From Oryzias latipes (lineage: Eukaryota > Chordata > Actinopteri > Beloniformes > Adrianichthyidae): DNA of 64,000 nt. The stretch is taken from NCBI RefSeq assembly GCF_002234675.1, contig NC_019859.2:30847434-30911433 (forward strand). The letters run 5' to 3'. Every line of letters starts with the position of its first letter. The stretch's first letter is position 1. The position numbers were made by a program, and so were the translations under genes. Shown here piece by piece: positions 39,539-51,500 of this stretch. Below the pieces are notes generated by a model. The model was not told where the DNA came from and did no database searches. It worked only from the letters and a program-made list of their open reading frames with translations.

Positions 39539-42500
39539 CTAGAGAGACGGGCAGAGAGGAGGAAGAAAACTTTTGGAAAACCTTGTTTTCTTTTTCTTTT
39601 TTCTTTTATTTTGCATTATATGGTAGAAATATAACTAGGAAAAGGTTACAAAAAATATATTGGATGCCAGTGAGTCAGAGCACAGCCATGTTGGTTAAAT
39701 GGAACTGAACGGCGTGGTGTGATGGCGGCCTAAACACATTTCTTCAATGGTCTTACCTGAATATGTCCATACATCAAAGGAGCAAACTAAACTAAATGTT
39801 GTTGTTTTTTTCTATTAATCTGTACATTTTCTAACATTTTTTCCTGCAAAACATAAAAATAGTCCTTCTCTAAAAGATCAAATGTACACATAAAATAACA
39901 TCGGTACAACAAACATGCGCATTTTTCCTTTCTTTTTGGGATAAGAAATGAGGTAAAAAGCTGCAGCTTATGAACAGGTGGAGTTTAACTGGGTTTTTAC
40001 AGCCAAAGCCAGTGTGGGTTTTTTTCTTCTTCTTTATTTTAAAAACAGAGAACATCAACCTTAGCTAAACTTTGCTTCATCTCTTCTTCACAATGCATAC
40101 GTCATGAGAATAAGAAAATACATTTCCCTTGGATCCTCTATGTTACCAACATGGCTGCAATTATTACACAGTAGAAATGAGTCTTTTTTTTTCTTTACAT
40201 TTACGATATATAAAAAAAAAAAAAAAGTCATCACACCTAATGTGTGAAAATATTTACTTTCTTACAAAGTTTTTTTTTTCAACGCTGTTTTAAACAAGTG
40301 AAAACAGCAGCGTCCCGGATAGCGAATTATGTTTGTTTAAGAGCGGCACCCAGGAGTTTGACATCACAATCTGCAAGAGAGAGACAGAACGGAGGGAAGT
40401 TAATACATGCGGGGGGTAATGGGGATGGGGGGTGGAGGGGTCGGCACTGTCTCCGGGATCCCAAACACAGGAAGGGGGGGGGGGTCACACGGATACCTTC
40501 GGTGACCCCGGATGATGGACGCTGATGCAGCTCCAGCTGCTCAGGATAAAAAGGGGATTTTTTTTCCAAACTGAAGCTTTTATTTCTTAAATATTTCTTG
40601 TCACCGGTTCATGGAAGTCATTTAAACACCGGTTTAAAGTCCCACTCCAGCTGTATTTTTATCTATTGCAGAATCGTTCTCAGTGTTTGTTAAAATTATG
40701 ATTACTGTATACTGTTTTTAGCCAAATCTAAACACCTGTATCGTTTTTTAAGACATATTTTCTGTGGAGCGGCAGGAGCTCATTAGAAATTCATTGTGGG
40801 CAGGGAAGTAACCCAACGCTGATATCCCATCATGCCTTTTGTTTACACTCTCTCCCGCCAGCTTATACATCCTCGCAACCCCAAGCTAACATTAGCGAAG
40901 CAACAAAACGGCGAGCAATATCAGAGCCATCCAGTCAGTTCTGATCCAAATGCATGAACGGATCGTCTGCAAGCGCAGGATCTGGATTTGGAGCGGAGCA
41001 GGGAGGCTTTGGCTCGCCCAGGGCAGTGTCTGCGTCACAAACCTCACCAAACGTTTTTTTTCCAAACGGCGGGTTTTCTTCCGGTCCTGATCCGATGTGA
41101 TTGGAATATTAAAAAAAATACCCAGAAACTGAGTTTTAATTTTTAAATTAAGAACATGTTAAAAACACCAAGAAGACCATTTTCATTGGAGTGGGTCTTT
41201 AAAACTTTTTTGCCATCTTCTAATGTTGGCTGTTAAAAGCATTTTCTCTATAAAATTCTTAAAAATAAAAAAGGAACACACAGCTCGAGCTTTACAATGA
41301 TCCTATATGCTTCAATATAGTTCTGATGGGCTTAACGTTATGGCCCAACGCAGTGGAAGCATCATTAATAAATACTGCTTTTATGTTTCTTATTAAAAGA
41401 TAAAGTGTCACGGATTTTACTGGTTTGAATTTGCTGCTGTAATTCATAATTTTATGGGTTTAGCTTTATTTTGAAAAGACTTCTGCTGGAGAAGTGCTTT
41501 TCAAATAAAGTAGAAATGAAAATAACAGGTTGAGTTTAATCCAATGTTTCATTAAGGCGTGAGACCACAGCAGACGGGTAAACTTGAAACCCTCTGTGGT
41601 GTCACAAAGCACCTAGAAATGTTTGCATATCTAAAATAATAGAAGACTTGTAGGGCTGGGTTTTAAATAAATCTTGATCTACAAGATTCAGTGTTGATTA
41701 TTGCATTTTTCCCCTGAAAGCTGCTTTGCAAGTCCCACCTTTTTTTTCTTTTTGTCTGTTTTAAAAACTAAACAGCCCCAACCAAGATTGATTTTTGTGC
41801 TAAAAATTAAACAATATATAAATAAAGGCTTCGTAAACAATAAATCCCAGTATAATAACAAGGATTGGAGGGTTCGGCAGTGATACCCAGCCCTCCAGAG
41901 CAGCGGGAAGCTAAAGACAACATGTTGACGCTGGTTGACTCCCAGCCCAGCTGCTCCCTTCCCAGCTTCGTCTCCGCTGACTCCTCCTCTGAGGTTGGAA
42001 TTCAGATTTCTTCCCCTCTCTTCTACTTGAGCTATTCAGTGTTGAATCTCTTCAACCCCATCATCTTCATCACTTTACCTGCTGGCTTTGAAGCTCTTGA
42101 GCTTCTGGACAAAGAAGCTCTCCAGAACCTCGGCACACTGGTAGAAGGGGGAGTCGCTTGGGTTGTAGTATCGGCAGTTGTCAAAGATTTTGGTCATGTC
42201 TGCTACAAACTCTGTCAGCTTCACGTAGGCCCGTTTCAGTAACCTCTCCTCCATGGTGGACAAGTCTAAAGAATCCAACAAACAAAACAAAAAAGGGAAG
42301 TTAAAGATTTTGGACAGCACAGAAAAAATACACAACTTGTTTTTGTGCCAGAAAAAACACAATGCAATAAAACAGAAAAAGCAGACAGATTCTTTCAAAA
42401 ATAAATGCAAAAAAGAGAATTTTATTGTTTTATTATCTTTCTTTGGTTTATTTTTAATGAAATTTCTGCGATTTTAGTATGGCCTGTTGGCCAACATGTA

Positions 42501-45500: not shown

Positions 45501-48500
45501 ACTTAAGTCCAAACGAAAACCTCCTTAGAAAAAAGCTCCAAATCAAGCTAATTACGATTATTTTAAGACATATCAAACGGGTTTGGAATTAATTGTAAGT
45601 GAAATATGTTTCAATGCAAAGAAAACATAAATAAATCCTCACTAAAGGAGGAATGGTGAAATAAAAAACCCAACCAAAACAAGCAGAAAGATTCCAAAGC
45701 TGCCACACTCACCCATCGGTTCCTTGATCACCCGGTAATAGTCGGGCGCATCGTTGGTATCCACCGGCTCCAGAAACGGCCAGGCCATCTTATGCGCCTG
45801 CGGGAAGGAGTGAGAGAGAAAACACAGAGCTAGACAAGTGGGAAAGCTGAAACCATAGAAGAAAAACAAACGGGAGCATGAAGATTATACTGAAAACAGG
45901 TGGATCAACACAGATGTTCTCCCAAGCTTTTCTCTCCATCTCTGTCCGTTTCACTCAGCGGTACAGACCGCTGGGCGAGAGGAAGAGAAAAAGAAAGGGA
46001 GGCCGGTTGGGAAAGATTAAAAAAAGAACTGAGGCTAGGCACATTTCCAAAAAGAGGGGGCCAAACCCATCAGATAAGATGAACACAGCGGGCTTTGCTG
46101 TTCTTAGTCTGCAGAGGAACTGCAGTGTTTTCTGTTGGATAGATGAACGGGCAGGTGGGTCTAGCGGCAGCACCAGTTGGTGTTTTTAACTCTGCTGTTG
46201 CTCCCGCTCACCTGTAAAGAACGCAGGATCCTCCGCAGGCCTTCAAAATCCTTCTCAGTGAGCGGCGTGAAGACCGTCATGGCGTCTTCTGTTGACTGAC
46301 ACTGAGGACACACGTACTCGTCAATGTGGTTGGCCTCGCTCTGCAAGATTCCCACACAGCGGCCGTGGTACCAGTTCTGACATCGATCGCAGCCGATGTA
46401 AAACCTGAGGAGGAAAAGAGAAACGCTGACCACAGGAAGACGTGACACTGAAGTGAATGAGAAGTCAGGGATGTGAAGACGATGAACCAATTAACCACGG
46501 ACACGAGCTCTTTCAGCTCCTTACTGGGACTCGTCGTACGGCGTCTGACAGATACAGTACAGCTCCTCCGTGCTGCTCTGCTGGCCTCGTTTACACTCCA
46601 CACAGATGTAATCGTCCATTTTCTTGGCCTCCTTCTCCGTGATACCCACGCAGTCCCCATGGTACCAGTTGGTACAAAGGTCGCAGCCAATGTAGAACCT
46701 TTGGACACAACGAGGACAGAGTTGGTCAACGGATCGGCAGCGTGTAAAAATGAAAGGGCTGAATTTTTCCTGTCTGCTGATTTCAACTGAAAAGCTGTGA
46801 ATGACCGCACGTCCAATGGGGGGTTTGGGATACAGCCGCATTTCCCTCATTTGGAATAATTGATTAACAGGAACGTTAAATGTTTGAATTCAGTCTTGTA
46901 GCAGTTAGGTAGTGTCATGCGATATTCAAGCATGTTTTTACACATTTAAACTTTGTATAGAAGTATAAGAACTTCCCTTTGTAAAGTAAATTCTTGAAGA
47001 TAAAGAAACCCCTCCCCCCCTTAGCCTTTACTTCACAGTGGGGGAGGGGTTTCCGGGATTCAGCCCGGTTTGCACAGTGGTGTTAAGTGGGCGGGGACAG
47101 CACACGGCTTCGGCGCCTCTTACTTTTCTGTCGCAGCTAACAGATCAGCGGTTCTTACGGCCCTCAGCAGCAACCTGGACTGCGAGGACCGTATTGTTTC
47201 CGAAATTCCTCTTTCTTATTTTTTGCTTCAGTACTGCCACATGCACCAAAATTCACCAAAAGTTGAGCGCATCTTGGCACGGTAATGGACCACCACCAGA
47301 AATTTATGACATCACAGCGGGAAAACCAGTCCAAAAATGAATGGGATCAAAACTGTCAAAATCTGCTAATGATGATTCATTTCCTTCGGGAACAATAAAG
47401 TATTGGGTTGTATTGTAACAAAACCAAAATGCATATGTTGGGAATATCAAAAAGGAAGTTTTGAAATTATTATGGGATGGCCACGGGACCTATGGCTTGG
47501 TGGCCATGTTGTACAAAAGTGTGTTTTCGCACATTAAGGGGGGAAAAAAACCCAACAACTTTTATTTAAGCAAGTTCCATCAAATTTGTCCTGCACCCCA
47601 CAAGGTCAACAACCACAACAAAAAGGTTGTTGACCTTTGACTTGGGGAAAAGTTTTGAATTTTTCAACCAAATCACCTTAAGTGCCGGCTAAAAATTTAA
47701 ACTCCTTCAAAGGGTTTCAACGTATCGCCTTCAAATGTATCGCCTCCAAACTCCTCCTTCAGCATCATTTGGAAGCTACTGTTTTGATCTTAAAGGAGCG
47801 TTCCCCTGTTCCCCTTCACATTTTTTGCAGAATATTGCATTTAATTCATAAATCCTTGTGAATGTGGGTGTGGTTAACAAAAATCATCTATTTCCAAGGG
47901 AATCCCAAAAGTTTACTTTTGCAGATTCTTCTAAAAATAAATACATGGAGATAAAACGGAAAAGCCGCCATTTTTTAAATGAATTTATCTAGTGCAGCTC
48001 TGACCAGGGTGGCAGGGGCAGGAGGGGAGGACGAGGGGCATGTAGCAGCTAGTGAAGGCCAGTCAGTCAGAGGGCGTCTAGGGCCATTCAACGCTGCTCT
48101 GGCTTTAATTTGTAATGGAATTTAGTTAAACCTCAGCAGATCTAAAGGGGTCACCCTGACTGAAGGCTCAGCAGAGCTTTGGCGTACTTGGTCTCGTCGT
48201 AGGGCGTCTTGCAGATACAGTACAGCTTGGTGTCCTTCTTGCTCTCCTTTGTGCATTTCGTGGAGATCATCTTCTTCTTCTTGGACTTGGCAGCCATCTC
48301 CCTCTCCTCTTCCCATTTCCTTTTGTGAGAAGTAGAGACGGTGGTGGCGAGGTGGTGCTGGGAGGCGATCCGATGGGAATCTGCCAGAGTTTGCTGCTGC
48401 TGCTGCTGGCGGTGGGCCGCAGCGGCTGCTGCCTGAGCTGCCTGTTGGGCGGCGGCCTGAGCCCGTTCCTTCTCCCGCTGCATCCGCAACAGATCCCTCT

Positions 48501-51500
48501 TTAACTCCTCCTGGGAATGTGAAAATAAAAGGTCAGCTCCAAACAGTCTGCAAATGACCATCTACGTGCCTCACACGGTTTATACCTGAGCCTCAAGCTG
48601 CAGTTCTTTGTCGAGAAGGGCTCGCTTCTTCAGGATCTCCATTTTGAGGCTCTCTTTGTGCCGGTAAAGGAGCGAGGAGAGCTTGCTAGCATTGGCCAAC
48701 CTCCGTTTTGCTTCAACCACCTCTTCCTTCTTCTTCTTTTTGGCCGCCTGCCTTTCATTTTTGTCAATGCGGTCAAGGAGGTACTTCATCACCTGGTTGC
48801 ATGCGATCATCCTGAAAGCAATAAAACATTTAACACAAGAAACTGCTAAAATTACAAATTATAAATCACACTCAACTTCCTTGTTGCATCTGTTGTTATT
48901 CCTTAAAACAAATAACTACGTTTATAGCATGAGATATCTATTTCTAATTAAGTTACAGTCACTTTCTTTTTTTTTCTTATTTTTACAGTCACTTTATTTT
49001 CTCTTTTTATAGTCACTTTACTTTTTTCAGCCTATTGTTTTTTATTTTGTAATTTGAAGTTATATTCCCGGTTAAGACTGGAGCTTGAGAGAAACGGAAG
49101 TTCAATTTCTATGTATGTATAACATTATAGATATTAAAGTTTACTTTGACTTAACTTTGAAGTTAACAGTTTTTGTGCTGGATCCTCAAATGTGTCATAT
49201 ATATTACAACAATTTAAACCCCGGAAAGACGACGCACAGATAGAATCTACACTGTGGACATTTTCTACGGGGCAAATCTGGTCCAATAAATTCACATAAT
49301 CGACGCCCTCCATTCCCCGCACGTTCACTTGTGTTTGCTAATATTCACAACTCGGATCTAAAGTTGGTGTCTCCCTCTGAGTGCATTTCTGCAAATAACA
49401 CGCAAACGCATACAGAGCTGCTGAGGTCAGACGCTGGCCAGGGTTTGTACAGCGAACACGGGAGAAAACAGAAAACTGTGTGGAAGTGCTGCACACCCAA
49501 ATACGAAAAGAGAAGAAATGTCAACTCAAAGTGTGCATGACAGGAATCAGTGAGAGTTTTGGTTAAGGGAGTAAAGGGAGAAAGCAAGAATAAAAAACGG
49601 CCTGAAATGTTTCAAGGAGAAAGCAGACAGAGCCACTGTAATGATGCAGCAGAGAATTTCAGGTCTATGTGAATCAGTAATGTTGACACAACATCTGTGG
49701 ACATAAACATATGGTTGTTAGGGTCACCGATGGGTCAAGAGCGTCTTCTCTCCACAGCTGGTATTACAAAAAAGGGTAAACTTTGAAAAGTTGTGTTTTT
49801 ATTTTAGATTTCAAAATTGCATTAGCCACAGCTTGACCTACAAAATACAGTGGATATAAAAAGTATTTGATCCCCTGCAAATACATTCTTTAAAGCCAAT
49901 TTCTTGAGTTTCTTTGTGATTTTCTATCTCTCACTGTTCAAATCAACCTACCATTAAGATGACAGACTGTCAGTTTCTTTTCAAATGAGCAAACCTACGT
50001 TTACTCCGCTGTGAAACACTTCCAAGTAAAATATTAAGTTTGATGTGTAACAAAACTGGACAAACTTGTCTGAACAAACAGTAAAGACCACAAACACTTG
50101 TGATATAAAAGAATATCTATTTCTACAAACTACACTCTGGAAGTCGGTGCAAGACAAAGAGCTTTGGTAGTTCTTTCGGAGATGAGGGAAAACATTTCAA
50201 GGCAAACGCTTGTTTTTCAGACGGCTAAAACTTGAATTCCTGCAACCAACACGTCAATAAAAACCTGTCCTCTTAGGATCGCAAAAGTGTCGTCTGTCTC
50301 TGATTCTGCAGACTGCTCCACTGTAAGAGATAGAGGTCCGTAATATTCATCATTGAAACACCAACTGTGAGAGGCACAATGTAAAAAAAAAAAAGCAGGT
50401 TTTAATTTTTTAAGAATTTCTTTGTATAATGATGCAGAAAACAAGTATTTGTTCAATAACAAAAGTTGACCTCAATACTTTGTAATGTTGTCTTGGACTG
50501 AGGGAAGAGCTAAATCCTCATTACTGCACCATTATACATATAAATTCTTTAAAAATCCTGAATTGTGATTTACTGAATTCTTGATTTAGATTCTGTTTCT
50601 CAAAGTTGAAGTGCATCTACTTGCAGTATTGGTGACTGACGAATGATGCGGGAAAAGAGACGGTGAAGTCAAACCTCTGGTTTTCTTCTCTCTCTGCAGG
50701 CGTCATGGTCTTCTTCTGCTTCAGGTGCTCGATTACTGCGTTCTGCTTCATGACCACCTGAAACATGGGACCAAGGTGGCAGAAACAGGGTTGAACACTT
50801 TTGAGGTTGTTGGTGCAACAGTTGCAGTGAAACAAAGAACAGAAGCATCCCACTGTAGCGCTCTGGTCCTTCAGGTGCTCTAATTCATTGTCAAGATGAA
50901 TAAAACAAACCTGAATTTGTTTAGCAATCATTTATGATGTGACATCAATAGTAGTGATTATTTTTAACAAGGCCTAATGTGACCAGAGAGTTAAACAAGC
51001 TGCAGTAAACCGAGAGGAGGTCTAATATACGAAAATAAACAGTCTGAGGACATTTTATAGACTGGAAGTGTTTATGAACCGATAGAAAGCAGATGAAGGA
51101 GACCCGACTTTACCGTGCGATGCTCCTGTACACACCTGCTTCTGAATGATGTCGCTCTGGTTGGCTGCATTAAGGGCGAGTTCTTTCTTTGCTTCTGACG
51201 CTTGTCGCTTCTTCTGCTGCTGCTGCTCTCTGAGCTGCTGGATCCTCTGGAGCTGCTCCTGGACCGATGCTGCCTGGATGGTTACTACATTTCCAACCTG
51301 GGCAGAGGTCATCATGTGTCATATTTCACCGGAACGACGTTGTTTCATCTATTTGGGTAAAAATTTGATTCTGACTGGCTGCTGGGTGTGCATTAAAAAG
51401 TGATAATCCACACCTAAAAAAGGATGTTCCTGGTCACATATCCTGAATGTTCTGTATCACTGCGCTGGCTTCTTTAAAACAAACTTTTGCTTCATCATAC

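Follow-up and report, generated by a model that had tools for sequence, protein, structure and literature searches.

The medaka BPTF gene in the window (the whole stretch of 64,000 nucleotides analysed) carries a skippable exon of 174 nucleotides, which was confirmed as genuine and the borders of which are exact. Our best explanation, held with moderate confidence, is that the exon encodes the inner of two C-terminal PHD fingers, that it came from a tandem duplication of a finger, and that it can be skipped in frame to leave a single chimeric finger. An interpretation put forward in the preliminary description, according to which splicing toggles BPTF between one and two fingers and so tunes the histone-reading valency of NURF, was partly supported.

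Exon structure and splice products

The coordinates of the exons and introns are given in Table 1; finger residues are numbered as in human BPTF. The 174-nt exon comprises 58 codons (phase 2 at both ends) and is delimited by the acceptor ccaaag/GTTCTAC and the donor TCCCA/gtaagg, while the following exon has its acceptor, cctcag/GTTTTAC, at 46404 and its donor, /gtgagc, at 46212. Being symmetric, in frame and bounded by canonical splice sites, the 174-nt exon has the structure of a cassette exon. Exons were joined by script, and both resulting products were in frame: inclusion gave two complete PHD fingers (A and B), skipping gave one. The Pfam PHD profile matched two stretches in the inclusion product (E = 8.1e-19) and one in the skip product (E = 1.7e-9); the E values for individual fingers were 1.1e-10 for A, 1.9e-10 for B and 1.3e-10 for finger A of a second BPTF copy on C8 (see below).

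The zinc ligands checked (positions 11, 13, 26, 29, 34 and 37, and the closing CxxC) were intact in A, B and the skip finger, and each finger thus combines the ligands and the Pfam PHD match of a C4HC3 PHD finger. Residues Y10, Y17, Y23 and W32, which make up the four-residue aromatic cage of H3K4me3-reading PHD fingers, were likewise intact together with D27 in A, B and the skip finger of both fish copies. Fingers A and B are each split between residues 21 and 22. The preliminary description had placed the exon between phase-2 introns at 46525-46698, had both fingers cut at the same place, and had predicted two full fingers with ligands and cage upon inclusion and one full finger upon skipping; all of this was borne out by the borders read from the sequence, the joined products, the Pfam matches and the residue check.

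Table 1. Exons and introns of the C-terminal reader region of medaka BPTF (window coordinates).
Feature	Position	Strand	Remarks
Upstream exon, 3' end encoding front half of finger A	48188..48510	-	Ends CCAA/gtacgc, phase 2
Upstream intron, 1489 nt, phase 2	46699..48187	-	82 nt in C8 copy
Symmetric 174-nt exon, encoding back half of finger A, linker and front half of finger B	46525..46698	-	
Downstream intron, 120 nt, phase 2	46405..46524	-	81 nt in C8 copy
Next exon, encoding back half of finger B and linker to bromodomain	46212..46404	-	
First bromodomain exon	45715..45797	-	Ends approximate
Second bromodomain exon, DLSTMEERL...FKAS	42075..42266	-	Ends approximate; translated

Relation to known BPTF structures

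The gene is securely identified as BPTF. Extended into the start of the bromodomain, the skip product aligned without gaps over 106 residues to the BPTF chains 6aze, 2f6j and 2ri7 (E = 1.3e-68), a match that comprises the PHD finger, linker and homologous bromodomain of the BPTF/NURF301 C-terminal reader and to which the second bromodomain exon, which was translated only, did not contribute. All four distinct PDB sequences that include the BPTF finger (eight entries) carry the skip-type junction, in agreement with the single-finger form given as the human reference in the preliminary description; in 2ri7, Glu replaces the second cage tyrosine and the junction is unchanged. The front half of the PDB finger (before FYIGCDRC) was identical to the two fish upstream exons at 15 and 16 of 16 residues, relative to 11 of 16 for each fish skippable exon, while its back half was identical to finger B at 33 and 32 of 35 residues and to finger A at 22 and 20 of 35. 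The PDB front half is thus closest to the upstream exons and the back half to finger B, as a splice chimera predicts. By this comparison, the known single BPTF finger is the product that skipping would yield. The human BPTF PHD finger-bromodomain module (2F6J, 2FUI, 2RI7, 6AZE) has the same junction, cage and ligands as the fish skip product, but the human structures hold one C-terminal finger, whereas the medaka exon encodes an additional one.

Skipping would do more than take away a finger, a point absent from the preliminary description: with the front half of A joined to the back half of B, the front half of the reader is replaced and its residue 21 changes from Gln to Lys. In both fish copies, finger B has Q at this position, and finger A and the skip finger have K. 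At residue 36, finger B has R, whereas finger A has D in the window copy and A in the C8 copy; at residue 46, finger B of both fish copies has N and finger A has K, in contrast to E in the human BPTF PDB chains. According to the available text of PMC13191287, K21, R36 and E46 form a second site, through which acetylation of K9 and phosphorylation of S10 enhance the binding of H3K4me3; the substitutions R36E and E46K were used there to disable this site. The same text has human and fly PHD2 both binding the triply marked tail better, with only R36 and E46 termed conserved. Since the enhancement is common to both proteins and only R36 and E46 are termed conserved, Lys21 is probably not essential for second-site reading. 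With residues 36 and 46 both differing, finger A has charges unlike those of the reader finger at either site. As a separate observation, Asn46 of finger B (46404-46212) replaces, in both fish copies, a Glu reported as important for H3K9acS10p reading.

Origin and age of the finger pair

Between the two fish copies, the back halves of the fingers (35 residues) were identical at 26 of 35 positions for A versus A and at 34 of 35 for B versus B, compared to 20-22 of 35 for A versus B. As the A-A and B-B identities exceed the A-B identity, fingers A and B were already distinct when the fish copies split. A second C-terminal PHD finger in which all cage residues are kept has been described in fly NURF301 (Kwon et al. 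2009, PMC2705796), and by the available text of this source and of PMC13191287, fly NURF301 resembles medaka BPTF in having two C-terminal fingers ahead of the bromodomain, the inner one with an intact cage. The second finger is therefore not a fish novelty, given its presence in fly and an A/B divergence that precedes the fish copy split, and the finger pair probably predates vertebrates, the fly side being known by description rather than by sequence. That the skippable exon should instead be a recent exon duplication within fish, for which one might cite the 35 of 41 nucleotides that the two front halves, of A and of B, share in the window, seems to us scarcely credible: these front halves are short and conserved at the protein level, their identity across copies is similar or higher (38/41 for A-A and 36/41 for B-B), both fish copies have the exon, their A-A and B-B identities exceeding A-B, and the fly already has two C-terminal fingers.

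The similarity of the skippable exon to its neighbours is confined to the end of the upstream exon and to the start of the next one. Because each neighbour matches only half of the skippable exon, the simplest origin is one in which a complete finger, its internal intron included, was duplicated, and not a ready-made exon. The exon duplication that had been proposed as the simple origin was therefore abandoned, and tandem duplication of a whole, intron-split finger, which would yield the exon directly, is suggested to account better for it. In the scheme that we favour, a finger interrupted by a phase-2 intron underwent tandem duplication together with this intron, and the resulting middle exon would comprise the back half of A and the front half of B; it would be skippable in frame since both flanking introns are in phase 2, and would encode the inner C-terminal finger, which putatively corresponds to the second C-terminal one of fly NURF301. 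Duplication of an intron-split domain would in this way create, in a single step, an exon that has only to be lost for the original domain to be restored.

Histone reading and valency

In the available text of PMC13191287, NURF301 PHD1 gave weak H3K36 array signals unconfirmed by pull-down (no binding detected), while PHD2 bound H3K4me3. Judging by the naming and by the text of Kwon et al. (PMC2705796), fly PHD1 is presumably the inner C-terminal finger and the counterpart of A. An intact cage is thus no demonstration of H3K4me3 binding, as fly PHD1 is without confirmed binding, and finger A may, as in fly, be a weak or non-H3K4me3 reader. The suggestion that splicing tunes the valency of NURF has consequently to be divided: the one-or-two-finger anatomy stands, but the H3K4me3 valency that it implied is weakened by a fly finger with an intact cage and no confirmed binding. 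A switch in which H3K4me3 is read by each finger, so that inclusion brings twice the contacts, would fit the cage, ligands and D27 being intact in both fingers of both fish copies, as well as the guess by Kwon et al. (PMC2705796, in the text available) that the intact cage of the second fly finger may bind methylated lysine. Such a switch is nonetheless improbable in our estimate, considering that fly PHD1 gave only the unconfirmed H3K36 signals whereas PHD2 binds H3K4me3 (PMC13191287), that finger A has D or A instead of R at residue 36 and a deviating K at residue 46, and that fish B has N for human E46. The fly PHD1 result speaks against H3K4me3 contacts being simply doubled and favours a reader of altered composition and spacing.

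Under the duplication scheme, inclusion would provide finger A, with a cage but with charges at residues 36 and 46 unlike those of the reader, next to finger B, the reader, with Gln21; skipping would provide the single chimeric finger (A front half, B back half, Lys21) in the form found in all four distinct PDB sequences. Fish may use both forms, and the switch would then alter the composition and spacing of the readers more than their valency. If both forms are made, NURF complexes within one animal would differ at their main H3K4me3-reading finger. As the binding and structural data considered here were obtained with one finger, and the junction in the PDB chains is of the skip type, the two-finger form would then be a reader not covered by these data. 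A broader proposal, which we regard as speculative and rather unlikely, is that the single BPTF finger of the textbooks is a chimera spliced from two ancient fingers, and that vertebrate splicing swaps the front half of the reader (Lys21/Gln21, a residue of the second site) and at the same time provides or withholds an adjacent finger of other specificity. What is tuned would then be the combination of H3 marks that NURF reads, and not the number of copies of any one mark.

Skipping or constitutive inclusion

Skipping of the 174-nt exon in fish is predicted from its sequence. Alignments between the window and C8 copies (two old copies) end 2-8 nt into each intron, and no conserved intronic control element, as would be expected of a regulated cassette, was found in these flanks. 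In a rough donor scoring based on approximate frequencies, the upstream exon reached 4.85, the skippable exon 6.18 and the next exon 10.81, with C1 48585 and the next exon of the C8 copy (two of seven rows) left out; with its own donor scoring above the upstream one, the exon is not marked as weak. Both introns of the C8 copy are approximately 80 nt, which is compatible with constitutive inclusion.

It is accordingly conceivable, if somewhat doubtful, that the exon is constitutive in fish, which would then always have two fingers, as fly full-length forms appear to, and that the single-finger form is mammalian. This would be in keeping with the short C8 introns, the lack of intronic conservation around the exon between copies, the intact exon in both fish copies, and the C-terminal PHD fingers, in the plural, of full-length fly isoforms in the available text of PMC2705796 and PMC13191287. 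It is countered by the skip product, which forms a whole finger and shares the K21 junction of the PDB chains; this fits skipping without proving it. A mammalian single-finger form produced by loss of the exon rather than by skipping is possible. The fly NURF301 isoforms described in the text available from these two sources lack either the entire C-terminal reader region or a 60-bp part of exon 6, unlike the skipping proposed for medaka, and skipping of the inner finger alone is not described for fly NURF301 in that text. A further observation concerns the last 13 codons of the upstream exon (48188-48228), in which synonymous changes between the copies affected 2 of about 9 sites, relative to 54 of about 79 sites for the two exons that follow (Fisher p = 0.010), a difference that was noticed post hoc on very few sites and carries no weight.

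Protein-coding alternative splicing of the same gene, as proposed here for medaka, is reported for mouse Bptf in meiosis, but the event in the available text (PMC3905889) is an alternative 5' splice site and the one proposed for medaka a cassette exon. Alternatively spliced exons of mouse Bptf are drawn in a figure of Landry 2008 (PMC2570622, text in part), and CD28-dependent splicing of 'full-length' BPTF is reported in human T cells, the exon being unnamed in the available text (PMC9625086). No description of this cassette exon in vertebrate BPTF was found in the running text of the literature available, and the available text of a tilapia and a mouse-striatum paper held nothing on the exon.

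A second BPTF copy on C8

A PHD profile search of the medaka genome (734,051,031 bases, 25 contigs) returned 83 matches, with 150 of 317 candidates scored. It included a second BPTF copy on C8 with the same three-exon layout, in which the skippable exon is 177 nt and the introns are 82 and 81 nt, and in which the intron phases and the cut between residues 21 and 22 are identical to those of the window copy. The two genes are presumed by us to be copies from the teleost genome duplication. Between them, 42 of 57 aligned residues of the skippable exon were identical (dN 0.15, dS 2.2; the resulting dN/dS of about 0.07 is rough, with dS near saturation), compared to 57 of 63 residues in the next exon (dN 0.05, dS 1.6). 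With dN well below dS, the skippable exon is, as far as can be judged from the two fish copies, under purifying selection in both.

A stretch at C8:20673000-20682900, approximately 25 kb from the C8 BPTF locus, matched this locus over 7906 columns with 0 mismatches and 24 gap openings (15 extra and 10 missing bases), its PHD exons being broken by indels; it has the look of an assembly segment that was duplicated and left unpolished, and not of a true gene copy. Outside the window, a further PHD match was located upstream on the same strand at C1:30930514-30930639, in an open frame of 289 residues, and is probably the N-terminal PHD finger; a similar match was present at C8 20719222, in a frame of 285 residues.
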